Origin: Rhodanobacter sp. ANJX3
GTDB lineage: Bacteria; Pseudomonadota; Gammaproteobacteria; Xanthomonadales; Rhodanobacteraceae
Direction of reading: 5' to 3'
Length of the DNA: 64,000 nt
Assembly (NCBI RefSeq): GCF_014200755.1
Contig: NZ_JACHCM010000001.1
Span: forward strand, 708,367 to 772,366
Shown here: positions 41,258-63,269 of the stretch, in pieces
Position numbering within the stretch: the first letter of the stretch is position 1
How the letters are laid out: each line of letters starts with the position of its first letter
The notes under the pieces: model-generated
Databases searched by the model: none
Seen by the model: the letters and a program-made list of their open reading frames with translations, nothing else
Told to the model about the DNA's origin: nothing
Translations under genes and position numbers: made by a program

Positions 41258-44200
41258 ATGGGGTTTGCTAGGGTTCTGGGTCTTGTACGACACGCATCAA
41301 CGGCATGGTTGCTGGCGTGCTTCGTCACTGCTGCGCCTCTTTGTGTCCGTGCAGACCCATCGCTCCAGCTATCGATCGCCGCGCCGGTGGATTTGCAACG
41401 ATCACTCGTAGAGCACCTGAACCGACCCCTGAAAGATTTCACGGTTACCGAGTACGGGCCTAGAGAGGGGGCGCCAGGCCAAGTGAATGTCATCGCACAA
41501 ACCTCCGATGGACTGCTCTGGCTGGGTTGTCCGGACGGTTTGGTTAGGTTCGATGGCGTGACATTTGATCGACCTTTCAACACAACCTTACCTCAGCAAA
41601 ACATCAGCGCTCTCTGGGTCGATCCCGACGGCAGCCTCTGGGTGGGATACACGTTTGGTGGGATAAGCCGATTACACGAGAGTCAGATATCTGATTTGTC
41701 GAATGGCTTGCCAGATAATACCGTTTACTCGATTGTAAGAGACGCTGATAAGACTCTTTGGGCAACCACACCGAAAGGCGTCTATTATCTCTCCGGCGCA
41801 AAGTGGGAACAAATAGGGCCACAACAGGGATATGAAGGGAATAGCTATTTCTTGTCGATGGGATTGCTGCGCGATGGCTCGCTCTGGATAGATGGCGGGC
41901 CACACGCATGGATGAAGAAACCGGGCAAACCCGGCTTCGTGCCTGTAGAACCAAAAAAATTGCTAGCATCAATCTACAACATCGATGACACGAATAAGTC
42001 AGGTAAAGCTCACGATCTTATTGAAGAACTGTCCAACTACTTCGAAATACATCCACGGTTTGTAAATGGCAAGGTTATAGAAGACTCATCAGGATCCATC
42101 TGGTCGTTGACAAGTGATGCCCTCGATCATTTCCGATGGACAACTCAAGCATCCAACGAAAAATCATTGTCATCCGATTCATTAGCACGTCAGGGCACAC
42201 CGTACGGCGAGGCTATTAACGCATTATTCGAGGATCGAGAGGGAAATATCTGGGCGGGTGAGATTGGCGGACTTTTACAGTTTCGACCTAGCAAACTACG
42301 CACGGTTGAAAGCTACGGTAAAATCCTGGCCCCGACTATTGCACCGGATTTACACGGTGGCGTATGGATTGGTTCGTCAAAAAATGACGGCGTAATGAGT
42401 GTCAACGGCGATGTCGAAACGCCATGGCCGTCTCTTCACGGGGCGACATCGTTTATAGCAAGCGGAAATGACGAAACCACCTGGCTTCTATCCCGAGTCG
42501 CGTTCAATACACCTTATAAATCGGCTGGCTGTATCCACCGGCTGAAAGAAGGAAAGATCGATTGCATCGCCTATCCTGATGATGTCGACCCCAGGTCGGC
42601 AGTGAGTATGCTGCCAGACCCACGCGGTGGTTATATTTTTTTGTCTATACAAGGCATTTATCGATTCATGGGTAACGCCTGGTTGCCGGGTACTGGGCTT
42701 CCTGGACTGGCTCAAGCCCCCCCTTTAAGGATGTTCTCTGGGGAGAATGGCGATATATGGTTCACCTATCCCGATAATCATATTGCCGTTATCACTAAAT
42801 CAGGCGTCAGGAATTACACGGCGGCAAATGGCCTTTCCATTGGCGCCATCCTGGCGCTTAGCGTGCAGCACGGAGATGTCTGGGCTGCCGGCACGAAAGG
42901 GGTGGAACATCTGCTTAGCCAACAATTCGTGCCTCTACGCTCAGCAGATCCAACAACCTTCGCAAGCGCCGACGGGATCGCTCAGACAGCGCAGGGAGAT
43001 TTATGGATCAATGCTTCGTCAGGGCTGTTTCTGATAAAACACAGTGAACTGAAGTTCACCGAAAAAGACCCAACGCACAAGGTAAGCGTTGAGCTATTTG
43101 ACCAGAACGACGGATTGCTAGGCGGTACGATAGGCTTCCGTTCGGGTCCATCGCTTGTTCAAAGTGGAGGGCGCATCTGGGCTGCGCGTGCCCAAGGTGT
43201 ATCGTGGGTCGACCCCGGGAAAATGATTCGCAACGAGATAGCCCCGGTCGCGGTAGTGGTTTCGATCGCTTCGGACGGCATACTGCACGGCATTTCGCCA
43301 GCGCCCCGATTCCCTGCGCTGGTTCATGCGGTGCGCTTCATGTATACGGCAGCGTCGCTGACAAGACCGGATAAAGTGAATTTCCGCTATCGCCTTGAAG
43401 GTTCCGACCCCGACTGGATCACCGTGGGCGACCGGCGCGCGACGACGTATACCGACCTTCGCCCTGGCACTTACCAGTTTGAAGTCGAGGCGGAAAACGA
43501 AGATGGCGTCTGGAGCGTTCGTCCGTCAGTGGCAAGCTTTACTATCGCGCCGGCGTTCTACCAGACAGGATGGTTCAAGACACTCTGTATGGCATCCCTG
43601 TTGCTCGCGCTATGGGGTTTATTCGCGTGGCGCTCTAAGCGACTTCGTGCACGTGTCCACTCGCGGCTGGAGGCCGTTCACGATGAGCGGGATCGGATAG
43701 CGCGCGAGTTGCACGACACGCTAATGCAATCCATGCAGGGCCTTATACTGCAAATCCAGGCGTGGTCGCAGGACGGTCTGGATCGACGCCATCTGGAAAT
43801 GGAGCGTGCGGCAAACTCCGCAACGACTGCCCTGCGTGAGGGCCGTGAGCGTATTCTCGCGCTTCGCCTTACGAGTTCTGACAAGCCCAACCTTTTGAGT
43901 GAGTTGCGGAAAGCGGGCGAGTACTGGGCACTCAGGGTGACCTCCGTGTTCGACATACGGGTGAAGGGCGAGTTCCGGGAACTTCAAACGAAAGCTTTCG
44001 AAGAGATTGTGGAGATCGCGCGAGAAGCTATACGTAACGCAGCGATACACTCCAAGGCCTGCCATATATTAGTCGCTCTTGAATATGCATCACACGCATT
44101 GACACTCACGGTAAGTGACGATGGCGAAGGACTACCGGCCTACGTATTGGCGGCAGGAATATTGCCAGGACACTGGGGTCTTGTCGGCATGAAAGAACGA

Positions 44201-44338
44201 GCGAAGGCTCTAGAGGCCAAACTCTCACTTCACAATCGCCCACAAGGGGGCGCAGAAATGAAATTAGTGGTTCCGTGCAAGCAGGCTTACGGTAAGGAGG
44301 TGCCGAGCAAGTGGGCGATAGTCAAGCGGACATACTAA
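41258..44338 (+). CDS. Hybrid-type periplasmic propeller sensor histidine kinase (HisKA_3), no adjacent regulator
   Basis: This 1026-residue inner-membrane kinase has a signal peptide (about 1-32). A large periplasmic sensor of two-component propeller repeats follows (GLLWLGCPDGLVRFDG; GSLWVGYTFGGISRLHE; GNIWAGEIGGLLQF; DLWINASSGLFLI). Then come a Y_Y_Y domain (VNFRYRLEGSDPDWITVGDR; TYQFEVEAENEDGVWS), one transmembrane helix (about 770-790) and a HisKA_3 domain with H819 in ARELHDTLMQS. The HATPase has an N-box EAIRNAAIHSKA, DDGEGLP, and GHWGLVGMKERA. It is paralogous to the kinase at 52.3-55.3 kb. The ATG has AAAAGG directly in front, so the exact start is uncertain. Confidence 0.92.
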   Translation: MGFARVLGLVRHASTAWLLACFVTAAPLCVRADPSLQLSIAAPVDLQRSLVEHLNRPLKDFTVTEYGPREGAPGQVNVIAQTSDGLLWLGCPDGLVRFDGVTFDRPFNTTLPQQNISALWVDPDGSLWVGYTFGGISRLHESQISDLSNGLPDNTVYSIVRDADKTLWATTPKGVYYLSGAKWEQIGPQQGYEGNSYFLSMGLLRDGSLWIDGGPHAWMKKPGKPGFVPVEPKKLLASIYNIDDTNKSGKAHDLIEELSNYFEIHPRFVNGKVIEDSSGSIWSLTSDALDHFRWTTQASNEKSLSSDSLARQGTPYGEAINALFEDREGNIWAGEIGGLLQFRPSKLRTVESYGKILAPTIAPDLHGGVWIGSSKNDGVMSVNGDVETPWPSLHGATSFIASGNDETTWLLSRVAFNTPYKSAGCIHRLKEGKIDCIAYPDDVDPRSAVSMLPDPRGGYIFLSIQGIYRFMGNAWLPGTGLPGLAQAPPLRMFSGENGDIWFTYPDNHIAVITKSGVRNYTAANGLSIGAILALSVQHGDVWAAGTKGVEHLLSQQFVPLRSADPTTFASADGIAQTAQGDLWINASSGLFLIKHSELKFTEKDPTHKVSVELFDQNDGLLGGTIGFRSGPSLVQSGGRIWAARAQGVSWVDPGKMIRNEIAPVAVVVSIASDGILHGISPAPRFPALVHAVRFMYTAASLTRPDKVNFRYRLEGSDPDWITVGDRRATTYTDLRPGTYQFEVEAENEDGVWSVRPSVASFTIAPAFYQTGWFKTLCMASLLLALWGLFAWRSKRLRARVHSRLEAVHDERDRIARELHDTLMQSMQGLILQIQAWSQDGLDRRHLEMERAANSATTALREGRERILALRLTSSDKPNLLSELRKAGEYWALRVTSVFDIRVKGEFRELQTKAFEEIVEIAREAIRNAAIHSKACHILVALEYASHALTLTVSDDGEGLPAYVLAAGILPGHWGLVGMKERAKALEAKLSLHNRPQGGAEMKLVVPCKQAYGKEVPSKWAIVKRTY

Positions 44339-51623: not shown

Positions 51624-52256
51624 TCAGCCCTGGATAATTCCGCGATTGACCGCAATCATGACCGCATGGGTCCGGTCTTTGGCACCGAGCTTGGACAGAA
51701 TGCCCTTCATATGCGCCTTGACCGTTTCTTCGCTGATGCCCAACATGTTTGCCACGTTCTTGTTGGAGTTGCCCGCTGCGACCTGCTTGAGCACCTGCGT
51801 CTCACGCATGGTTAGTTCGTCGTCGATGGCGTGATCGGCGATCTGGGCCGCTATTTCAGGAACGATGCATCGCTTGCCTGCATGGAGTTTGCGGATGGTA
51901 TCGACCATCTCCTTACGCAATACACTCTTGAGTAGAAACCCCCTCGCGCCCGCTTTCAGGGCATTGACTGCCTGGACGTCTCCTTTATAAGTCGTCAAGA
52001 CAAGAATAACCGCGGCAGGAAACTCCCGGCATATCTGGTTGATCGCCTCAACTCCCGTCATACCCGGCATCTGGATATCCATAAGAGTCACATCGGGCCG
52101 GTACTGCCGAAACTTTTCAACGGCTTCATAGCCATCGCTTGCCTCAGCTACCAGAACCATATCGGGCTGCGTTTCGATAACCGCTGCGATGCCATCGCGC
52201 AGCATGGGGTGATCGTCGACGGTGAGAATTCGGATAAGGTTATCTTCGGATTGCAT
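51624..52256 (-). CDS. NarL/FixJ-type response regulator paired with the propeller kinase
   Basis: This 210-residue regulator has a complete receiver (ILTVDDHPMLRDGIAAVI; Asp in VTLMDIQMPGMTG; VLTTYKGD; Lys in FLLKSVL) and a LuxR domain (LTMRETQVLKQVAAGNSNKN; ISEETVKAHMKGILSKLGAK). It begins 3 bp after the stop of the sensor kinase, so the two form one operon and are very likely cognate. Its paralogue without a kinase is at 34.2-34.8 kb. Confidence 0.95.
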   Translation of the reverse strand: MQSEDNLIRILTVDDHPMLRDGIAAVIETQPDMVLVAEASDGYEAVEKFRQYRPDVTLMDIQMPGMTGVEAINQICREFPAAVILVLTTYKGDVQAVNALKAGARGFLLKSVLRKEMVDTIRKLHAGKRCIVPEIAAQIADHAIDDELTMRETQVLKQVAAGNSNKNVANMLGISEETVKAHMKGILSKLGAKDRTHAVMIAVNRGIIQG

Positions 52257-52259
52257 AGG

Positions 52260-55200
52260 TTATCTTCCACCCTTGACCAGACGCCGCAGAATATGACGAA
52301 ACGATGGGCGGGTATCTCCATACGCAACCGCAGCAGGAATTTTCAGCTCAATTTCTGTACCCAGATCGGGCCCGCCCCAAACGACGAGACTGCCGCCCAT
52401 TTGAACAGCGCGCTCGCGCATTCCCACCAGTCCCCAATGCCCAGGCCGGCCCCCACTAAGGGTGACGCCCTCGCCTATCCCGCGACCGTTATCCCGAAAC
52501 CGCACTCTGAGCTCATCGCTATCGTGACTGATCTCGATCTCAATCGCGTCGGCATCCGAATGCCGGTAGGAATTAAGAATTGCCTCCCGACCAATACGAT
52601 AAATTTCCTCTCGAACCATCGGATCGACCGGATGTTCCAGTCCCTCAACCAGGATCTGAAAAGATACATTAGCGTCCTTACCCAACTCTTCGCCGATTAG
52701 TGCAAAAGCGCGGGGTAGATTACGGGCCTGTTCGGCGGTTGTCCTTAGGTCAAGCAGACGGTCGCGCCCTTCAACCAGTACGTCGTCGGCCCTATCAAGG
52801 GCTTTATCAATCATTGCTCTTGCCGGTTCGCCCATGGGGACTCGCTGGGCGGCCGCTTGAACGCTCAATATCAGTCCTTGCACCGATTGCAACAGCGTAT
52901 CGTGCAGCTCTCGAGCGATCCGTTCCCGTTCGGCGTAGCGCTCATTCAGCCGACTGCGTACGTTGTCGGCGACCTGACGAAGCCTCATTCCGAATAACAA
53001 GGCTGTGATGATCAAGACAGCTGCCACACAAGCAATGATAAACAGGTTTGTCTGATAGAACATGCGCGGTATGGTCACCCCCACCGACGCTGGATAAGTG
53101 CTCCACACACCGTCTTCATTTTCAGCTTCGACTTGAAATGTATAGGTACCCGGCGAAAGGTTGGCGTAAAAAGCTTCCCTGCGTGTACCCACATCTTGCC
53201 AAACCTCGTCCACACCATCGAGCCTGCATCGAAAGCGCGTACCCTCCGGAACAGACAGACTTGTAGCAGAGTATTCAATCGCTAAATTGGACGTTCTTTT
53301 CGGTAACTGCATCACCGAAAGATCATTCCTAGTCTCACCATCGGCGTGCGGCTCTGGCAGGTAGTGCCGGCCATTGCTCGACACGTCCACAATTTCCACG
53401 GTTGGTGGTACGCGATTCAGATGAGTATGCCGCGGGTCGATCCAGGCAATACCAAGATTCGTAGCGACCCATATCTGGCCATCCCTATCCACCCATGCCG
53501 TTGGCAGCGACTTCGATTGCAGTGCGAAACCGGGCAATCCATCGCGATACTGAAACAATTTATAGGTGGGACTGTAATTGCTATCGTCAAACGCTTTTTT
53601 TAATTCCAGAGCACTGATTCTAAGCACTCCTTGGCCCGTATTAAGCCAAAACATTCCCTCCGACTGCACGATGCCGGAAATACCGCTGATCGGGCTGGCA
53701 CCAATCGACGAAAGCGTTTGGAACTTGCCGTTCTCGAAACGGGCCAGCCCCAGTTCGCCTCCCACGAGCTTCAGTGATGTCGCCACATTGAAGGAGCTCA
53801 CCGCGCCGATGCCGACACCATCTTTCGAAGAGAATAACCGTGCGCTGTGTGCGTCCTCCACCACAACCCGGTTATTGGTAAAACCAACCCACAGGCCTTC
53901 GTTGGCCAGAGCTAAAGCCGTCGGCGTATCTCGAATCAAGGAATCGCTGCTAACGCTCCATCGTCCCGATGACCAATGAAACAATCGACCGTTGACGAAA
54001 GACGCCCATATTCCGCCCGCATGGTCCGAAGTAAAAGCCGCCAACGAGGCGTTGGTGACTCCCGCCGGCAAGGGAATGGACTGCGTAACGCCGTCCTTAT
54101 AACGATATATCCCAGTTTCTGATTCAAACCAAAGCGAACCATCTTCGGTGCCGGCCAGATCGTGGACGGTTTCCGGCATCTTGATGACAGAATGAAGTAC
54201 GGCGTTCTCAACCCGATATATCGATCTTCCGTTCAGTATCCAGACATTCCCCGCGCTGTCGACAGTCCCGTTGAAGTCTACGCCTGGAATCACCTCCAAC
54301 CCGGGAACGACGGAAACGTTGCTGCTTCTGAAGCTATCAAGTCCAAAATTTGTGCCAACCCAGACGTTGCCTTCGCGATCGTTCAACAGAGGGTCTGTCA
54401 AATCTGAAGTCAGACCATTTTTCCGATTCACCACGTATGAGAGATCGCTGCTCTGTAAAGAACGGCCATCCGCAACAGTCTTGGGGTCAAGCACGATATA
54501 GACGCCACCCGATTGAGAATCGGTGCCCCACATGTGCCCGTTACGGTCAAAAAGCATTCGGTTGGACGTTATGAAGTTCTGTGAAAGTAACTTGGGCGCG
54601 ATCGAAAGGCTCGGATGAAGAACCGTCACGCCGGGGAGCGAACGCGTACCATGAACCTTGTCGGACACCCATAGACCATCATCACGATCCAATGCCAGCA
54701 CCGCGCCAGAGCCCAGCGCAATATGAGTGTCCTGGAATCGATGAGAGCCTTTGGCGAGAAAAAGAAGCGACGAGGGGCCCGACGCCCACAAGGTTCCCTC
54801 CTTATCGACCAGCACCCATCCAGCACTGTTCGGAGGAAAGCCCCAATCATTGCCTATCGTGGTCCACCGCCCATTCTCGTACCGGGCCAATCCATGCCTC
54901 GCAGCTGCCCAGATGACACCATCCTGGGTTTGCGCAAATGCCAAAACCCACCCGCTGGGAAAACCGTCGTCTTTTCCATAGGTCGTGGCATGGCCCTGTT
55001 TGATAAGCGTCATGCCACCCAGATAAAAGCCGGCCAAAATTTCCCCGGTCGGCAGAACGCTCAGTGACGTGATGTTGGACGATGAAAATGATTTATCAAA
55101 CTGTATGGCAGATCTGAATTTGACTCCGTCGAACTGATACAGCCCAGCGCCCGTACCCAGCCATAGAGAACCATCGACTCCCTGCGCGATCGACCAGACA

Positions 55201-55331
55201 TCACGCGGCGCTCCCGTTGCTGCACTCCAAGCCGAGTGATGGAACTGATCCATCGGGGAGGCGGTAATGTCGAAGGATCTAGCCATCCCTGTCAGAATAA
55301 AAAAAAGACATCCCGCCAGCAGGCAGGACAT
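52260..55331 (-). CDS. Propeller-type sensor histidine kinase (HisKA_3), partner of the adjacent NarL-type regulator
   Basis: This 1023-residue protein has a signal peptide (MSCLLAGCLFFILTGMARS). Periplasmic propeller repeats follow (GSLWLGTGAGLYQFDGVKF; GVIWAAARHGLARYENGRW; GNVWVGTNFGLDSF; GQIWVATNLGIAWIDP). Next are a Y_Y_Y domain (TRFRCRLDGVDEVWQDVGTR; TFQVEAENEDGVWSTYP), one transmembrane helix (LFIIACVAAVLIITALLFGM), and a HisKA_3 domain with H810 in ARELHDTLLQSVQG. The HATPase has EAILNSYRHSDA, DNGRGIG and GHWGLVGMRERA. An upstream TTG start (55403) would add 24 residues. The stop lies 3 bp before the response regulator. Confidence 0.93.
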   Translation of the reverse strand: MSCLLAGCLFFILTGMARSFDITASPMDQFHHSAWSAATGAPRDVWSIAQGVDGSLWLGTGAGLYQFDGVKFRSAIQFDKSFSSSNITSLSVLPTGEILAGFYLGGMTLIKQGHATTYGKDDGFPSGWVLAFAQTQDGVIWAAARHGLARYENGRWTTIGNDWGFPPNSAGWVLVDKEGTLWASGPSSLLFLAKGSHRFQDTHIALGSGAVLALDRDDGLWVSDKVHGTRSLPGVTVLHPSLSIAPKLLSQNFITSNRMLFDRNGHMWGTDSQSGGVYIVLDPKTVADGRSLQSSDLSYVVNRKNGLTSDLTDPLLNDREGNVWVGTNFGLDSFRSSNVSVVPGLEVIPGVDFNGTVDSAGNVWILNGRSIYRVENAVLHSVIKMPETVHDLAGTEDGSLWFESETGIYRYKDGVTQSIPLPAGVTNASLAAFTSDHAGGIWASFVNGRLFHWSSGRWSVSSDSLIRDTPTALALANEGLWVGFTNNRVVVEDAHSARLFSSKDGVGIGAVSSFNVATSLKLVGGELGLARFENGKFQTLSSIGASPISGISGIVQSEGMFWLNTGQGVLRISALELKKAFDDSNYSPTYKLFQYRDGLPGFALQSKSLPTAWVDRDGQIWVATNLGIAWIDPRHTHLNRVPPTVEIVDVSSNGRHYLPEPHADGETRNDLSVMQLPKRTSNLAIEYSATSLSVPEGTRFRCRLDGVDEVWQDVGTRREAFYANLSPGTYTFQVEAENEDGVWSTYPASVGVTIPRMFYQTNLFIIACVAAVLIITALLFGMRLRQVADNVRSRLNERYAERERIARELHDTLLQSVQGLILSVQAAAQRVPMGEPARAMIDKALDRADDVLVEGRDRLLDLRTTAEQARNLPRAFALIGEELGKDANVSFQILVEGLEHPVDPMVREEIYRIGREAILNSYRHSDADAIEIEISHDSDELRVRFRDNGRGIGEGVTLSGGRPGHWGLVGMRERAVQMGGSLVVWGGPDLGTEIELKIPAAVAYGDTRPSFRHILRRLVKGGR

Positions 55332-55499
55332 ACCTCTGTTGAGCAACTCATGTCTACCTAAATGCCGCAATGGCTCAGGCCTCCACGGCCAGCAAGTGTT
55401 CAATAACCATAAAGTTCCCGGTCAATCACCCGAAAGGGTGTCGCATGCACATCTCTTAAAGAAGATTCTGATCGCGTATAAAGCCACCAGGCTTCTGCC

Positions 55500-56018: not shown

Positions 56019-56810
56019 CTAGACCCTCATGGCTTCGACCACAAGTGGGCGCATAACGTCGTACCCCGCCCGATTAGGGTGAAGCCCATCATTCGTATAT
56101 CGCGGAGGGAGCGAACGGTCTTCGGCAGCCAGTGCGCTGAAGTAATCAATAAAAACCGCACCGCGCTCGTTTGCGGTATGGCGCAACCAGTCGTTCAACT
56201 CGGCAATACGCGCGATCGGCCTAACCTGAGGGCTATGCGTAAACCCCGCGGCAGGTGTGATGCTGCCCAGCAGGACATTGATACCGTTGACTTGCGCGAT
56301 GTCGAGCATGGCCAGAATATTGTTCTTGTAGTCTTGCGGCGTCGTTGCGCCGGTGTTGCCGGCAATGTCGTTGCTGCCGCAAAGGATGTGCACCGCCTGT
56401 GGCCTCAACGCCACCACGTCGGGATAAAAGCGGATCAACGTCTGCGGCGTCGTCTGGCCACTGATACCTCGGCCGATGATACCGTTCGTAAAAAAGCCTG
56501 GATCGGCGTAACGCCATATCTCAGTGATGGAGTCGCCAATGAAAACCACTTTCGGACAACCCTCTTTTCGTACAGTCTCGTTCTCTCCGCGATACAGGCC
56601 GAGAAAGGGCCAGTCGCGCGAGCGCTGTCCTACTTCTGCGGCGGTGTAAGCGGCGCGAGCCTCTGGGTCAGTAACAAGAGCTATCAGCTCCGGCCCCGCT
56701 GGACCCGAACCAAGCAGGAACTTAAGTAATGCCTGCTCGAATGGCGAATGTCTACGCGGCGTCGGATCAAGCCGATCCACCATGCCGACGGGTGTTTGCG
56801 CCTGGGTCAT
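56019..56810 (-). CDS. SGNH/GDSL-family hydrolase (cytosolic)
   Basis: This 263-residue protein has the four GDSL blocks: VVFIGDSITEIW (Ser, about residue 94), GRGISGQTTPQTLIRF (Gly), ILCGSNDIAGNTG (Asn) and NDGLHPNRAGYDVM (catalytic Asp and His). It resembles PAF-acetylhydrolase-like and acylhydrolase members of the family. It has no signal peptide but an N-terminal extension of about 80 residues. GAAGGA lies 8 bases before ATG. It is a separate lineage from the hydrolase at 50.6 kb. Confidence 0.9.
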   Translation of the reverse strand: MTQAQTPVGMVDRLDPTPRRHSPFEQALLKFLLGSGPAGPELIALVTDPEARAAYTAAEVGQRSRDWPFLGLYRGENETVRKEGCPKVVFIGDSITEIWRYADPGFFTNGIIGRGISGQTTPQTLIRFYPDVVALRPQAVHILCGSNDIAGNTGATTPQDYKNNILAMLDIAQVNGINVLLGSITPAAGFTHSPQVRPIARIAELNDWLRHTANERGAVFIDYFSALAAEDRSLPPRYTNDGLHPNRAGYDVMRPLVVEAMRV

Positions 56811-57406
56811 TGGTCACATCCTTCAGTGGAAGTTGATGAAAGCTCGTCGCGGATAAAAGCAAACGGGTAGCTCGTCCGAGTCAAACCGTTCGGCCGCTGA
56901 CGATCTGGATCTTCTAAGGCGAATTGGCCAAATCATCATTGCGCGCCACGATTTTTCAACGTTCATCGGCGCAAAATATGCTGTCGATCGAACCGCGCAC
57001 CTCGCCACTCAAACAAACCGTGGCAATTGGGACGAGGGCTTCAAAGTCGAGGAACAGCTGCTGTCTTCACGCCAGAGATGGTGCATCGACATCCGCATAC
57101 CACCACCATTCGTGATTCTTGCTCGATGCGCACTCATTCTCGGCGTAGTCGTCGCACGAATCGAGTAAGCGTCTTGCCGTGTGCAGCGCGGGATAAAAAT
57201 GGCCACGCAGGGAAACTTCGACCCAGCCATGTGCTTCTGCACCGACCCGTCCTACCTGACCCGAAGCAGCCGCGCCAACATCGAAATCACTCCCCCACCA
57301 AGTACTGAACATGTCGATTCTCACACACGCCAACCAACAAGACGGCCGACAAAATCAGCCCCTCATGAGTTGTCACGTTAACGTGACTTAAGGCGCAGTG
57401 CAAGCG
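56811..57406. other. 596-bp region without a supported gene
   Basis: Short frames on both strands overlap. A minus-strand stretch near 57,070-57,220 reads plausibly for about 50 residues (AHGWVEVSLRGHFYPALHTA), but I recognise no family and no ribosome site. It may be decayed coding DNA. Confidence 0.4.
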
Positions 57407-58030
57407 TCAACGAGCGCGTTTGAGTTTTGCCACAGCGTCGGCACCTGCCACAGCGACGGTGGTGTAAATCGAGACAATTTCATCCAGCGTTGCGACTTTG
57501 AGCCCCAGCGCGTCCACCGCGCCACGCAGCGCCGCCAGATACATTCTCGCCACCACGTCCGCTCTTGCCTTTGGAATAGCGTGCGAGTTACGCAGTACTG
57601 CAGCCCAGTCCTTGACTGCAAGGTCATGAACTTCTTTGGCGATGTCTGGAAACACCGCATCGTCGGAAAACATTTTTGACAACAAAGGCCCACGCTCGCG
57701 CGCAAGTTCTAGCCACACCTGGATATTGGCGCTGACGAGTTGGCGTAAATCCGGTTTGGCAGGCAGGATCGCGCGAGCTCGGCTACCAGCCTCTCTCATC
57801 TCTTGATTTAGCAGGGCTCGAAGCAACTCTTCACGGTTGGTGAAGTAACGATAGCCCAGGCGCTTGTTGACCCCCGTGCGGGCAGCTACCTCCTCCATCG
57901 TAACTGCCGGGAGCCCCTGCTCCACGACGATGGCAGCTGCCGCCTCAAGAAACTTGCTGCGTCGTTCGGCGGCGGACAGTCTCGATTTCGTCATTGCCTT
58001 ACGTGGATTGGCTGCAGCAGGCTTGTTCAT
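57407..58030 (-). CDS. TetR-family transcriptional regulator
   Basis: This 207-residue repressor has a helix-turn-helix at about 20-68 (RRSKFLEAAAAIVVEQGLPA; VTMEEVAARTGVNKRLGYRYF; TNREELLRALL) and an all-helical ligand domain. ATG 58030 is supported by an AAAGG site 7 bases upstream; the frame is open further to 58261 without family similarity. It faces the TonB receptor at 58.9 kb across about 840 bp, so it is a candidate regulator of that locus. Confidence 0.92.
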   Translation of the reverse strand: MNKPAAANPRKAMTKSRLSAAERRSKFLEAAAAIVVEQGLPAVTMEEVAARTGVNKRLGYRYFTNREELLRALLNQEMREAGSRARAILPAKPDLRQLVSANIQVWLELARERGPLLSKMFSDDAVFPDIAKEVHDLAVKDWAAVLRNSHAIPKARADVVARMYLAALRGAVDALGLKVATLDEIVSIYTTVAVAGADAVAKLKRAR

Positions 58031-58751
58031 GATGTTTACCTTTCCTCCATTTGGGGACGACTCTAGCGCGTCGATCAGTCCCGACGTGCCCAATGGAACG
58101 GTACGAAAGCAGCCCGGTTGCACAGAAAGCCCTAGCGCAGGGCAAGTTGAGCCGAGCATAAGTCTCGATACCGTGACTAGCCAAATAGAATAGCGTGAGC
58201 ACGGATGACATTGCCTTCCTGAGACATGCGCGTTCTGACGAACCAACGCGCGCGACCACATATTTCTACTGCAACCCTCTCATGCCGCGCGTATGGGTCT
58301 CGAGCACGGCAAGCATGAAATCCAATGCCGACATCCAGCACAGTATGTCCTTTAGCGCGATGGCAGCCGACGCTCCCCACCGCGAGAACGGCAGTTCAAC
58401 AACGTATTACGAAAACAAATCAAACCACTTTTGTACTACGCAGATTGTCTCGGAAAGAGCTGCCCTCTGACGAAAATTTGGTTCGGGAAAATAATCGATG
58501 TTGCGCTGCACACGCTGATTTCCCCCTTGTCTATCTGCGCTTTCCTCAGCCGCGCAAAGCATCGATGACGTACTGAAACGCCCTGGCCATTAAAGATAGT
58601 CAATGTCGACTTGATCAGCGAAACGGCTTGAAGAAGAGCTATCACTCGCAGCGTACGATTGAACAATCGCTCGCCGCCAAGCCTATTTGGCTTCGCATAT
58701 CGCATGGCATTCCGCGCTAGGCCTCAGCATCTAGTTCGTTGCATCGCACCA
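58031..58751. other. Long intergenic region between the TetR and TonB receptor genes
   Basis: No convincing gene. A frame on the minus strand (58436-58705) is open but carries no motif. The segment should hold the TetR promoter at its left end. The receptor's promoter and operator are annotated just to the right. Confidence 0.4.
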
Positions 58752-58773
58752 ACAAACAGACTTGCCTGTTTGT
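58752..58773. promoter_or_regulatory. Perfect 22-bp palindromic operator candidate upstream of the TonB receptor
   Basis: ACAAACAG-acttgc-CTGTTTGT has perfect 8-bp arms and a 6-base spacer, the size expected of a TetR-family operator. It overlaps the -35 box of the best promoter in the region. Two TetR genes flank the receptor; which one binds is not determined. Confidence 0.65.
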
Positions 58774-58790
58774 AAATATGTCCCTATCTT
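58762..58790 (+). promoter_or_regulatory. Sigma70-like promoter of the TonB receptor-TetR-GH1 unit
   Basis: TTGCCT (58762-58767) and TATCTT (58785-58790) are separated by 17 bases. The receptor start lies about 80 bp downstream. The palindrome covers the -35 box, which fits repression. Confidence 0.6.
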
Positions 58791-58869
58791 TCGGCCACGC
58801 TTTGTAATTGCCGCCCGACAGCAGCGTTGATGAAGAGCGCCACCACTAGAATCGTTGGAGGGGTACCTT

Positions 58870-61233
58870 GTGCGCACTTCTTATCTCATCATGCTCGCCT
58901 GCAGCAGCGCTTTGATATCGGTCACCGCGCCGGTGTACGCGCTGGAGACATCTTTCGGTTTGGATTCGGCACAGGCATCGAACGCTCAGTCCACTGCTGG
59001 CACAAAAGCAGCTAGAGGGATCGAGAAGACACAGGAAACCGATAACGCGTCGCCCCAAAAGGCGGCCAATCTCTCGCAAGTCATGGTGACTGCAACAAAA
59101 CGCGCGGAGTCGATTCAGTCGGTGCCGGTGACCGTGACGGTGATCAATGCTGCGCAATTGCAGAATCAAGGCTTGAACGAAGTGCAGGATCTCACCCATG
59201 CTGTCCCTGCATTGACGGCTCAAAAAAGCCAACCTACGACGCTGCAGATTCGCGGCATTGGCGTACCGCAAAATGCTCAAACCGCAGAGCCTAGTGTAGG
59301 CGTCGTGGTGGATGGTGTATCGCTGGGTAATGCTACCGCGGCATCCCCGCAATTGTTCGATGTGTCGCGGGTAGAGGTGCTTGAGGGACCTCAGGACACC
59401 CTGTTCGGGCGCAGCACCTCTGCTGGCGTGCTCAATATCACCACCAACGCACCGGATCCCAGCAAGACTGAGTTGACTCTCCACTCGGACCAGGGAAGTC
59501 GGGACAGCTACACCGACCAAGCAGTGCTTAATCTGCCTGTGTCAACCTACTCTGCGCTGCGCCTGTCGGTGGCGGATACGCGACAACCAGACACGATTTA
59601 CAACGCATACCAGCACATCTGGGACGACAACAAGGCACGCAGTGCACGTATTCGTTACCTGTGGCAGCCCACGGACAAACTCACCTTCAACATCATCGCC
59701 GACTATAGTCGCGTCACCTCAAAGGTCAGCGATACCGACTTCCCGGTATTCCAGGCAACACCCGGCGGCGTTCTGAGCAATTTGCTTGCCACGTGCGGGA
59801 TCGTGCCAAATCAAGACAACAATCGCACCTGCTCGGATGGCCCGAACCGCAGCACGGCAAAGTCAGATGGATTATCCAGCCAAGTCGACTATGACTTCGG
59901 CGCAACCACCTTGTCGTCGATTACCGCCGTACGCCACCTTCGAGCGGCTGACGGTGGCGATGCCGACAGCGCTCCGGTGGATCTGGTCAATACCAACACC
60001 AAAGACATCAATCTGCGCACGCAGAGCCAAGAATTTCGACTGACGTCATCTAACAACGATTTCCTGGATTATGTCGGCGGCCTCTACTACTACCACAGCA
60101 CGAATGTCACCAGCACCGTAGAGGAAGGTATGCCGCTGCTGGAGGACGGCCTGCCGTTCCTGCTCGGTCAATCGTCGCTCACGCAGTCGCGTGAACGCAG
60201 TTACGCGGCTTACGGTGAAGCGACGTTGAAATTCACGCCGACGTTCCGCGGCATTATTGGCCTACGCTACGGCGACGACGATGTCTCAGCCACTACGCTG
60301 CGTCAGCTCGCGCCAGGGGCGATTTTCCCCATCACAAGCACCGCGGACATCCACGGTCGTACGGAAAACAAATACAACTCCTTCCGCTTGGGCATACAGA
60401 ACGATCTGACCTCCAATGCCATGGGATACATCACGTTTACCAAGGGCTACAAAGGTCCTGCGGTCAATGACCAGGCCACCAGCACCGACGTTCCACTCTT
60501 GGTTAAGCCAGAAATTCCCATCGCTTGGGAAGCTGGTCTCAAGACGACGTGGCTCGATGGCCGCGTCGGCGTGAATGGGTCGATCTATCACACGCATATT
60601 GAAAACTTCCAGGCGCTCTACTTCGATCCCACATCGGCAACCTTTGTCTACGGCAATGCACCGACGGTCACGATCAAGGGCGTCGAACTGAGCGCCTTTG
60701 GACATCTCAATGACAACTTCACGCTCAACTTCGGCACGCTGTATAACAACGGCAAGTACGGCAACGGTTACTTCGTCGGCTGTGCGCCCAACTTTCAGAC
60801 CGACGCCGACGGGTGCCACGCGGTGCCCGGCAAGACGACGAGAGAGTCCGATGCCGGAGGCAATCAGTTGGTCGCTTCGCCCAAATGGAAAGTCACCCTC
60901 AACGGAACTTACAGCCGCGCCCTGAATGCAACGCTGGACGGTTTCGTTTCGGCCGACGGCGTGTACACGTCGCGCATTTATTTCGATCAGGCCTATGATC
61001 CCACCGACACTACGGGTAGCCACGTGTTGTTCGGAGCAAAAATAGGTGTCCGCTCACACGATGGCCGATGGGGTATCTATGTCTATGGTCGCAATCTGAC
61101 CGATGAGCGCGTGCCACAATTTCGTTTTGTGACACCCATAGGCACGACGCTGGGCGACACGAATACTTACAGCCAGACTTTCGGTGCCGATGCATTCCGT
61201 ACGATCGGCGTTTCGTTCGACGCAAAATTTTAA
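58870..61233 (+). CDS. TonB-dependent receptor, 787 residues
   Basis: This outer-membrane transporter has a signal peptide (MRTSYLIMLACSSALISVTA, cleaved after PVYA). A TonB-box region is at about 70-85 (LSQVMVTATKRAESIQSVPV). The plug has QIRGIGVPQNAQ, GVVVDGVSLGN, VSRVEVLEGPQDTLFGRSTS and GVLNITTN. The beta-barrel ends IGVSFDAKF with a terminal Phe. The TKR-ESIQ-VP and GPQ-TLFGR signatures belong to the FyuA/FecA-like receptors common in sphingomonads and xanthomonads. GTG 58870 is preferred: GGAGGGG lies 6 bases upstream. It is followed by TetR and GH1 genes on the same strand. Confidence 0.94.
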   Translation: MRTSYLIMLACSSALISVTAPVYALETSFGLDSAQASNAQSTAGTKAARGIEKTQETDNASPQKAANLSQVMVTATKRAESIQSVPVTVTVINAAQLQNQGLNEVQDLTHAVPALTAQKSQPTTLQIRGIGVPQNAQTAEPSVGVVVDGVSLGNATAASPQLFDVSRVEVLEGPQDTLFGRSTSAGVLNITTNAPDPSKTELTLHSDQGSRDSYTDQAVLNLPVSTYSALRLSVADTRQPDTIYNAYQHIWDDNKARSARIRYLWQPTDKLTFNIIADYSRVTSKVSDTDFPVFQATPGGVLSNLLATCGIVPNQDNNRTCSDGPNRSTAKSDGLSSQVDYDFGATTLSSITAVRHLRAADGGDADSAPVDLVNTNTKDINLRTQSQEFRLTSSNNDFLDYVGGLYYYHSTNVTSTVEEGMPLLEDGLPFLLGQSSLTQSRERSYAAYGEATLKFTPTFRGIIGLRYGDDDVSATTLRQLAPGAIFPITSTADIHGRTENKYNSFRLGIQNDLTSNAMGYITFTKGYKGPAVNDQATSTDVPLLVKPEIPIAWEAGLKTTWLDGRVGVNGSIYHTHIENFQALYFDPTSATFVYGNAPTVTIKGVELSAFGHLNDNFTLNFGTLYNNGKYGNGYFVGCAPNFQTDADGCHAVPGKTTRESDAGGNQLVASPKWKVTLNGTYSRALNATLDGFVSADGVYTSRIYFDQAYDPTDTTGSHVLFGAKIGVRSHDGRWGIYVYGRNLTDERVPQFRFVTPIGTTLGDTNTYSQTFGADAFRTIGVSFDAKF

Positions 61234-61293
61234 TAGGTAACGATCTTTCTAAACAGCGCGCCTTCTGGCAAAACACGCCGCTGTATTGAGCAG

Positions 61294-62040
61294 ATGTTGA
61301 CCAATAGAGAGATTCTCTTGACGAAGAAAACTCAAGCCAAACGGAGTGCCCCGGTCTCGCCAGCCCATGCAAATACGGGTTCTTCGTCGACGCCTTTGCG
61401 GCGGCCGCAGGCACAACGCAGCGCCGATACACAAGCGAAACTGATCGACGCGGCAATTGCTTGCCTTCATCGCGTCGGCTATAGCGCTACGACGGTCACC
61501 ATGGTGGCAGAGGAGGCCAAGGTTAGTCGCGGCGCCATGTCCCATCAGTTCCCTGCAAAAACCGACCTGATGCTGGCGGTCGTCGAGGCAGTGTTCGAAG
61601 CGGACGCGAAGTATTACCAGTCAACCGTCATGGCAAAGTCACCCAAGCAGTGGGTTCTCGATCTTCCGGCAACGGTCTGGGAGGCGGTCAGCCGTCCATC
61701 GGGCACCGCAGTCATGGAAATCATGCTCGCATCGCGTTCCGACAGCGAACTGGCAGACAAGCTGCGCGCAAAGCAACAGGCCATCGATGCCCGATCGCAC
61801 GACTGGATTATTGAGCGACTCGCCGCTGCGGGCCTACACGATCGGCCGAATGGAGAAGCCGTCCACCGGCTATTCGTTGCAGCTATCCGCGGCCTATCGA
61901 TGGAAGCCTTGTTCCGTCGTGATAAGGCCGATAGTGAAAACTCTCTGGCGGTGCTCGGTGAAATTCTCGGCCTGCTCTATCCCGCCAGAGACACTAAATC
62001 ATCAAAACGCAAAGCACCATCAAAAGGCAAAGCACATTGA
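61294..62040 (+). CDS. TetR-family transcriptional regulator overlapping the GH1 gene
   Basis: This 248-residue protein has a basic N-terminal tail of about 40 residues, a helix-turn-helix (about 45-95: TQAKLIDAAIACLHRVGYSA; VTMVAEEAKVSRGAMSHQFP; AKTDLMLAVV) and a helical ligand domain. It ends with a Lys-rich tail. Two starts are possible: ATG 61294 and a TTG at 61318 that has a better AGAGAG site. The stop TGA shares bases with the GH1 TTG start (TTGA), so the two are translationally coupled. Position within the unit suggests feedback by the imported sugar or its aglycone. Confidence 0.9.
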   Translation: MLTNREILLTKKTQAKRSAPVSPAHANTGSSSTPLRRPQAQRSADTQAKLIDAAIACLHRVGYSATTVTMVAEEAKVSRGAMSHQFPAKTDLMLAVVEAVFEADAKYYQSTVMAKSPKQWVLDLPATVWEAVSRPSGTAVMEIMLASRSDSELADKLRAKQQAIDARSHDWIIERLAAAGLHDRPNGEAVHRLFVAAIRGLSMEALFRRDKADSENSLAVLGEILGLLYPARDTKSSKRKAPSKGKAH

Positions 62041-63269
62041 ACGAGGCACCTCGTCCCGCTCCTAAAAATTTCCTTTGGGGTGTAGCTATCTCCGCGCACC
62101 AGAGCGAAGGCAACAATACCAATTCCGACATCTGGCTCGCCGAGAATGTCACGCCGACACTCTTCGTTGATCCTTCCGGAAAAGCCTGCGACAGCTACCA
62201 CCGTTTTGCCGAAGACATTGCGATTGCTGCCGACCTCGGATTCAACTGCTATCGATTTGGCATCGAGTGGGCGCGCATCGAGCCAGAGCCTGGAAAGTTT
62301 TCGATGGCCGAACTCGACCGCTATTCACGCATGCTTGATTTATGCGCGCAGCGCGGGCTCGCACCCATGGTGACTTTCAGCCATTTCTCCGTACCACTCT
62401 GGTTTGCGGCGCGCGGCGGTTTCGAGGTAGCCGACGGTGCCGATCTGTTCGCTCGGTTTGCCGAGAAAGCCACCGAGCGGTTGGGTGATCGCATGGCTGC
62501 GGCTACCACGTTCAACGAAGCGAATGTGCAGCGGCTACTTGCCCTGATCCGCACGTCCGATGCGCAACCTGGGATTGACGCGATGTTGGAAGCATGTGCC
62601 AGGCGATGCGGCTCAGCGCGTTTTTCATCGCTAGTATTTACCGATTTCAAAAAGACCGAGCCGGTGCTGCTGGACGCGCACCGCAAGGCGATGGCCGCGA
62701 TCAAGGCCGGACCAGGCCGTTTTCCCGTCGGCATCTCGCTGACCATGCAGGACGTTCAGGGTGTTGGCTGGATCAACTTGGCAAAGGTCGTCACCGACCG
62801 ACTTTACGGCCCGTGGCTGGATGAGGCCAAAGGCGCCGACTTCATCGGTGTACAGACCTACACGCGCGTACAGATAGGGCTACGTGGACGCATCGACCCA
62901 CCAGCGGATGCCGAGATGACGACTGCCGGCTACGAGTTTTATCCGCAAGCGCTGGGCGCCACAATACGATTGGCTGCCGCTCGCACCGGGAAGCCGGTCT
63001 ACGTGACCGAGAGCGGCGTCGCCACCGACGATGATTCGCGTCGCATTGCCTACATCGACGCGGCACTGGCTGAAGTAAAGGCATGCATCGATGAAGGCAT
63101 TGATGTCCGCAGCTTTATCCAGTGGTCACTACTGGATAACTATGAATGGACTGCCGGTTACGGTCAGCGATTCGGCTTGGTCGAAGTCGACTTTGACACG
63201 TTCGAACGCAAGCCCCGGCCAAGCGCTTTTCATCTCGGGTCGCGTGCGCGCCAAAACCTTTTTGGGTAA
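62037..63269 (+). CDS. Divergent family 1 glycoside hydrolase (beta-glucosidase-like)
   Basis: This 410-residue cytosolic enzyme has a GH1 TIM barrel: FLWGVAISAHQSEGN, FNCYRFGIEWARIEPEPGKF, MVTFSHFSVPLWFA, TTFNEANVQ with the acid/base E161, YVTESGVATDD with the nucleophile E325, and SLLDNYEWTAGYGQRFGLVE near the end. Both catalytic glutamates are kept, but the canonical NEP reads NEA and TENG reads TESG. It is about 40 residues shorter than typical GH1 enzymes. The start is TTG 62037, overlapping the TetR stop. It probably cleaves a glycoside imported by the upstream TonB receptor; the aglycone is not predictable. Confidence 0.9.
   Translation: MNEAPRPAPKNFLWGVAISAHQSEGNNTNSDIWLAENVTPTLFVDPSGKACDSYHRFAEDIAIAADLGFNCYRFGIEWARIEPEPGKFSMAELDRYSRMLDLCAQRGLAPMVTFSHFSVPLWFAARGGFEVADGADLFARFAEKATERLGDRMAAATTFNEANVQRLLALIRTSDAQPGIDAMLEACARRCGSARFSSLVFTDFKKTEPVLLDAHRKAMAAIKAGPGRFPVGISLTMQDVQGVGWINLAKVVTDRLYGPWLDEAKGADFIGVQTYTRVQIGLRGRIDPPADAEMTTAGYEFYPQALGATIRLAAARTGKPVYVTESGVATDDDSRRIAYIDAALAEVKACIDEGIDVRSFIQWSLLDNYEWTAGYGQRFGLVEVDFDTFERKPRPSAFHLGSRARQNLFG

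Follow-up and report, generated by a model that had tools for sequence, protein, structure and literature searches.

A predicted TetR operator conserved across three proteobacterial classes in a TonB receptor and GH1 glycosidase locus of Rhodanobacter sp. ANJX3

Near the end of the window, that is, the whole stretch of 64,000 nucleotides of Rhodanobacter sp. ANJX3 that was analysed, two TetR-type regulators stand around one TonB-dependent receptor and one GH1 glycosidase. This raises the question of which regulator acts at the palindrome in front of the receptor gene, and on which substrate the enzymes work. An earlier note on this DNA had described TetR, TonB receptor, TetR and GH1 as one unit with a TTGA overlap, and all four genes were found in place. 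That unit was nevertheless incomplete, since it overlooked a GDSL hydrolase gene (56019-56810) whose relatives lie 3' of GH1 in three orthologous loci. The features of the locus are the following:

56019-56810, minus strand: GDSL acylhydrolase (Pfam GDSL), a relocated member of the gene set
56968-57243, minus strand: decayed GH2 beta-mannosidase-like N-terminal fragment with an in-frame stop inside, between the GDSL gene and TetR1
57407-58030, minus strand: TetR1, a TetR_N protein (Pfam TetR_N), divergent from the receptor gene
58752-58773, no strand: operator ACAAACAGACTTGCCTGTTTGT, the predicted TetR2 site; an exact palindrome, conserved upstream of TonB, MFS or GH1 genes where a TetR2 homologue is present
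58762-58790, plus strand: putative promoter of sigma-70 type ahead of the receptor operon, predicted from sequence, with TTGCCT (58762-58767), 17 bp and TATCTT (58785-58790)
58870-61233, plus strand: TonB-dependent receptor (Pfam Plug and TonB barrel), whose 43-64% identical orthologues adjoin TetR2 and GH1
61294-62040, plus strand: TetR2 (TetR_N PF00440, 49 bits, cut-off 24), predicted repressor binding the operator
62037-63269, plus strand: GH1 glycosidase, cytosolic-type (Pfam GH1 PF00232, 210 bits)

The receptor gene most likely starts with the GTG at 58870, ahead of which lies GGAGGGG (58857-58863), and the TTGA shared by the TetR2 and GH1 genes (62037-62040) probably serves translational coupling. 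Both catalytic glutamate motifs of GH1, acid/base and nucleophile, are present (TFNEA at 158 and YVTESG at 322), and its closest solved structure is 6ier, beta-glucosidase 1317. The relatives of the GDSL protein directly 3' of GH1 share 62%, 51% and 51% identity with it in loci L017, L016 and L021, respectively. The GH2 fragment is 36% identical over 86 aa to the GH2 of L021 and 35% over 96 aa to that of L019 (E about 4e-10).

The palindrome reads ACAAACAG-ACTTGC-CTGTTTGT, a perfect 8+6+8 arrangement of 22 bases. Even with up to 3 mismatches allowed, the window has no second copy of it, and no other exact copy exists in the genome. Its symmetry alone is unremarkable, with at least one perfect 8+8 palindrome in 16% of shuffles of the 839-bp intergenic stretch; its significance therefore lies in its conservation. 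The earlier note had placed a perfect 8+8 bp palindrome at 58752-58773 over the -35 box of a well-formed promoter. The palindrome is exact and correctly positioned, and the -35 box TTGCCT does fall inside the operator, but the promoter is only moderate, matching 8 of 12 consensus bases, under the scanner's threshold of 9/12. Genome-wide, the best second match has 2 mismatches and lies inside a gene reading as a transposase (C16). No further regulon members are claimed in this genome, where matches at up to 3 mismatches are as many as in the backwards-read control, and neither the GDSL nor the TetR1 promoter has an operator copy within 3 mismatches.

Species genomes searched with GH1 yielded 80 loci. 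Nine of the ten nearest (L016-L019 and L021-L025) contain receptor, TetR2 and GH1, as the core TonB-TetR2-GH1 in L016-L019, L021, L022, L024 and L025 and in a rearranged form in L023; L020, from Burkholderia, is a short contig holding TetR2 and GH1. The unit is found in Nevskia, Dyella, Collimonas, Caulobacter and Sphingomonas, and the core is spread over Alpha-, Beta- and Gammaproteobacteria, the named locus closest in protein identity being that of Dyella sp. RRB7. TetR2 orthologues in L016-L025 are 56-68% identical, and the recognition region VSRGA is kept in all aligned members, including Sphingobium homologues of 34-37% identity. Two observations had been named beforehand as fatal to the proposed unit: receptor and GH1 genes never co-occurring elsewhere, and a palindrome not conserved upstream of orthologous receptors. 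Neither was made, as the two genes co-occur in many genomes and the palindrome is conserved at that position.

The site upstream of the TonB gene is ACAAACAGACTGTACGTTCTGT in L016 and L019, ACAAGCAGGCTTGACTGTTTGT in L021 and ACAAAAAGGATGTACGTTTTGT in L022, with close variants in L024 and L025. On the Burkholderia contig L020, two sites precede GH1 and a third separates TetR2 from an MFS_2 gene. In the Sphingobium loci, where a 34-37% TetR2 homologue is divergent from TonB, ACAATCAGGATTGACTGTTTGT or close variants lie between both genes. Of the 14 loci with a TetR2 homologue, 11 have the operator upstream of TonB with at most 3 mismatches; of the 39 comparison loci, which were TonB-plus-GH1 loci without such a homologue, none has it (Fisher p = 5e-9, an optimistic value, the sequences being related). 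The TetR2-bearing exceptions are L018 (4 mismatches), L023 (5 mismatches, degraded) and L017 of Dyella sp. RRB7. The last has no operator because a Tn3-family transposase gene landed immediately 5' of TonB and the region was removed (L017 1783-4743, ending about 60 bp ahead of the receptor gene); after this loss the receptor may be constitutive or transposon-driven. Mean information per column falls from 1.20 bits within the operator to 0.27-0.30 in its flanks, and across 14 whole genomes the operator is nearly restricted to TetR2/TonB/GH1-type loci. The 22-mer of Nevskia (G425) recurs without a mismatch on another contig, where it precedes MFS_2-GH2-Abhydrolase_3. Chance conservation is implausible, because the operator spans three proteobacterial classes and has few other genomic copies.

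As an independent test, homologues were sought by TetR2 alone in 399 genomes of one sphingomonad family. All seven new homologues (37-45% identity) flank a TonB receptor, with GH1 within about 8 kb in five. The operator upstream of TonB has 1 mismatch in L187 and L188 and 4 mismatches in L184 and L185; L186, L189 and L190, with a TetR2-type regulator near TonB and GH1, have no good match upstream of TonB, and such distant homologues may use other sites. The locus has a predicted palindromic operator overlapping its target promoter, namely a conserved 22-mer over the predicted -35 box, with predicted TetR2 binding. Taken together, the comparisons argue strongly for TetR2 as the most likely owner of the operator. 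Operator conservation and the co-occurrence of receptor and GH1 genes also support the earlier proposal that a repressor at the palindrome controls import and intracellular deglycosylation.

The pair of TetR proteins had been read in the earlier note as a sign of two signals, for example a glycoside and its aglycone. Two signals would control the receptor if TetR1 owned the operator or if both regulators shared the site. About 720 bp separate the divergent TetR1 from the palindrome, and a 40% identical relative adjoins GH2 in a Burkholderia genome whose TetR2 contig carries three operator copies. However, the operator-bearing loci contain no TetR1 homologue: none occurs in the ten nearest orthologous loci (L016-L025), and at E<=1e-8 it is absent from 10 of the 14 genomes with operator-bearing loci. 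Moreover, the operator adjoins TetR2-type genes even in the distant Sphingobium loci, and no copy within 3 mismatches lies near the Burkholderia TetR1 relative, which makes control of the receptor by TetR1 very unlikely. It is TetR2 that the operator tracks, not TetR1, a gene missing from most orthologous loci. The glycoside and aglycone as two signals for two regulators are unproven.

A different role for TetR1 is suggested by its closest homologue among locus-bearing genomes, that of Burkholderia 4M9327F10 (40%). This gene lies directly 5' of the N-terminal half of a GH2 gene at a contig end, and the C-terminal half of a GH2 gene opens contig L020, the one with TetR2 and GH1. The two halves are presumably one gene split by assembly, which would give a two-TetR locus there too, the one counterpart of this arrangement. 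The orientation, TetR1 before GH2, is the same in Burkholderia and in the window, where GH2 is a fragment. From these two loci, TetR1 appears more likely to have once regulated GH2 than to control the receptor as a second regulator. No palindrome common to the window and the Burkholderia relative was found as a candidate TetR1 operator.

We consider it likely that TonB-TetR2-GH1 is a horizontally acquired, TetR2-repressed scavenging operon of a partial CUT type. Acylated beta-mannosides are its most likely substrate, because in relatives the same operator precedes a symporter, GH2 and an esterase. Gene content, operator conservation and TetR2 co-occurrence were established by comparison, and we infer the binding, the direction of regulation, the ligand and the substrate. 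TetR2 would be a local autoregulating repressor, whose dimer would sit on 58752-58773 when no ligand is present, covering the -35 box and blocking transcription of the whole operon. Either the substrate that is taken up or one of its hydrolysis products is the probable ligand; its entry would release TetR2, so that receptor and GH1 could be made, and GH1 would then cleave the glycoside within the cytosol. Copies of the operator in relatives also stand ahead of genes for a GPH-type symporter of the inner membrane, for GH2 beta-mannosidase and for an esterase.

The genes around close orthologues bear on the nature of the substrate. They encode an Abhydrolase_3 protein, a beta-lactamase-fold esterase, an MFS_2 protein (GPH symporter), GH2 and GH130, as well as ROK or PfkB sugar kinases (fructokinase-like) and a D-mannose isomerase-like protein. 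The GH2 of the relatives has beta-mannosidase 5n6u as its best PDB match (500 bits). Their GH130 is nearest to BT3780-type beta-1,2-mannosidases and aligns with a Lys and two Glu that are candidates for the linkage determinant and base in those enzymes (PMC4599007), the residue numbers being matched to that paper by an inferred constant crystal-construct offset. Since GH2, GH130, mannose isomerase and esterase genes are neighbours, mannoside catabolism with deacylation is the best-supported class. With moderate confidence, we take an acylated beta-mannoside to be the most likely natural substrate; its linkages may be of the beta-1,2 type.

The earlier note had thought instead of plant glycosides. 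Under such a reading, the substrate would be a plant beta-glucoside or phenolic glycoside and the mannoside-type neighbours elsewhere would be incidental. The GH1 of the window is in fact closest to beta-glucosidases, and an alpha-L-rhamnosidase, an enzyme typical of flavonoid rutinosides or naringin, adjoins distant Sphingobium members. In the Sphingobium version (L056 9363-12320), this GH78 enzyme lies 3' of GH1 and suggests rhamnosyl glycosides as a differing substrate under a related TetR. Together with the kinship of GH1 to beta-glucosidases, it points to probable shifts of specificity within the wider family. Against a plant glucoside, GH2 beta-mannosidase, GH130, mannose isomerase and fructokinase recur near close orthologues, a mannoside-specific enzyme (GH2) stands in an operon behind an identical operator in Nevskia, and the window itself retains GH2, as a fragment only. 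The neighbours of orthologous operons thus indicate beta-mannoside rather than plant glucoside catabolism, and we regard the plant-glucoside alternative as possible but distinctly the less probable. A broader scheme would be a so far undescribed TetR regulon, spread horizontally among Proteobacteria associated with soil and plants, that serves to import acylated beta-1,2-mannosides (glycans of fungal or yeast type) and to break them down in the cytosol, with TetR2 governing uptake and GH1, TetR1 governing GH2 and each reading a different intermediate; this remains speculative and, in our judgement, improbable.

How the TonB-TetR2-GH1 operon came to be in this genome can be addressed by its distribution. 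The locus is absent from the 35 other congeneric species sampled, the region has a GC content of about 55% versus 60-66% outside, and a class-wide TetR2 search (369 genomes) returned only its own copy. In a plasmid collection, all receptor matches were below 60% identity. Owing to the absence from congeners, the low GC and the want of a class-wide TetR2 orthologue, the TonB-TetR2-GH1 unit was most likely acquired horizontally. The locus is a reduced version of the gene set, with a GH2 fragment, no GH130 and no convincing symporter partner. The genome of the window has no GH130, and no inner-membrane transporter lies within the window locus, whereas orthologous loci have one. The best MFS_2 match of the genome lies elsewhere, only just clears the cut-off and is not closely related to the symporter of the regulon, and the sole full GH2 of beta-mannosidase-like kind is 35% identical and outside the locus.

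Such reduction could mean that the locus is the remnant of a decaying island and that the operon is non-functional in strain ANJX3. The GH2 gene cut to a fragment with a stop, the displaced and inverted GDSL gene, the missing GH130 and the weak MFS_2 match would all fit decay. Yet TonB, TetR2, GH1 and GDSL are intact open frames, the GH1 catalytic motifs are present, the operator is perfect, and the ribosome-binding site and gene overlap are kept, so that a non-functional operon seems unlikely.

Comparison with known systems places the acquired operon near the CUT loci, carbohydrate utilization loci containing a TonB-dependent receptor, such as sux of Xanthomonas campestris, which combine receptor, enzyme, transporter and regulator (PMC1790865). 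As in sux, the genes of a TonB receptor, a degradative enzyme and a repressor stand together, an inner-membrane transporter is present in relatives of the window locus, and induction by the imported sugar serves as the model. In the window, the receptor and an adjacent degradative enzyme (GH1) were found, TetR2 provides a regulator through the conserved operator with a predicted sugar response, and no transporter gene was found; since the transporter is missing from the window, the locus is only a partial CUT locus (PMC1790865). Unlike in sux, the regulator is TetR-type and its gene overlaps that of the enzyme, the predicted substrate is a beta-mannoside, and the operator can be traced over three proteobacterial classes.

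BT3780-type GH130 beta-1,2-mannosidases of Bacteroides act on yeast mannan, and the hydrolases are secreted (PMC4599007). The GH130 of window-locus relatives resembles them in the aligned Lys and two Glu, but these relatives are proteobacterial and TonB/TetR-based, inspection by eye shows no obvious signal peptide on their GH130, and the genome of the window is without GH130. Beta-glucosidase 1317 (6ier) matches the window GH1 over its full length and has the same short GH1 architecture, but is known only as an isolated enzyme. Among open-access papers, no TetR/TonB/GH1 or GH130 regulon of this kind was found described; the parts are known, and the combination and the operator are new. For a TetR subfamily that spans three proteobacterial classes, this gives a predicted operator, predicted targets and a predicted type of ligand. 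Such bacteria have many TonB receptors, few of them with known substrates, and the substrate of this receptor is directly testable because the operator links receptor, symporter and glycosidases.

The low-GC stretch extends from about 28000 to 64000 and on to about 67100 (L126), some 39 kb with 52-59% GC versus 60-66% on both sides, and is a probable genomic island. Besides a catalase and alpha/beta hydrolases, it encodes a tail-specific protease and two sensor kinases of the Reg_prop/Y_Y_Y kind. The latter are large proteins with a beta-propeller and Y_Y_Y (41258-44338 and 52260-55403), accompanied by a probable regulator (51624-52256). At or just past the window end, on the opposite strand 3' of GH1, lie a 3-hydroxyacyl-CoA dehydrogenase-like gene (L126 8126-9070) and a weakly PagL-like gene (L126 9215-9793).
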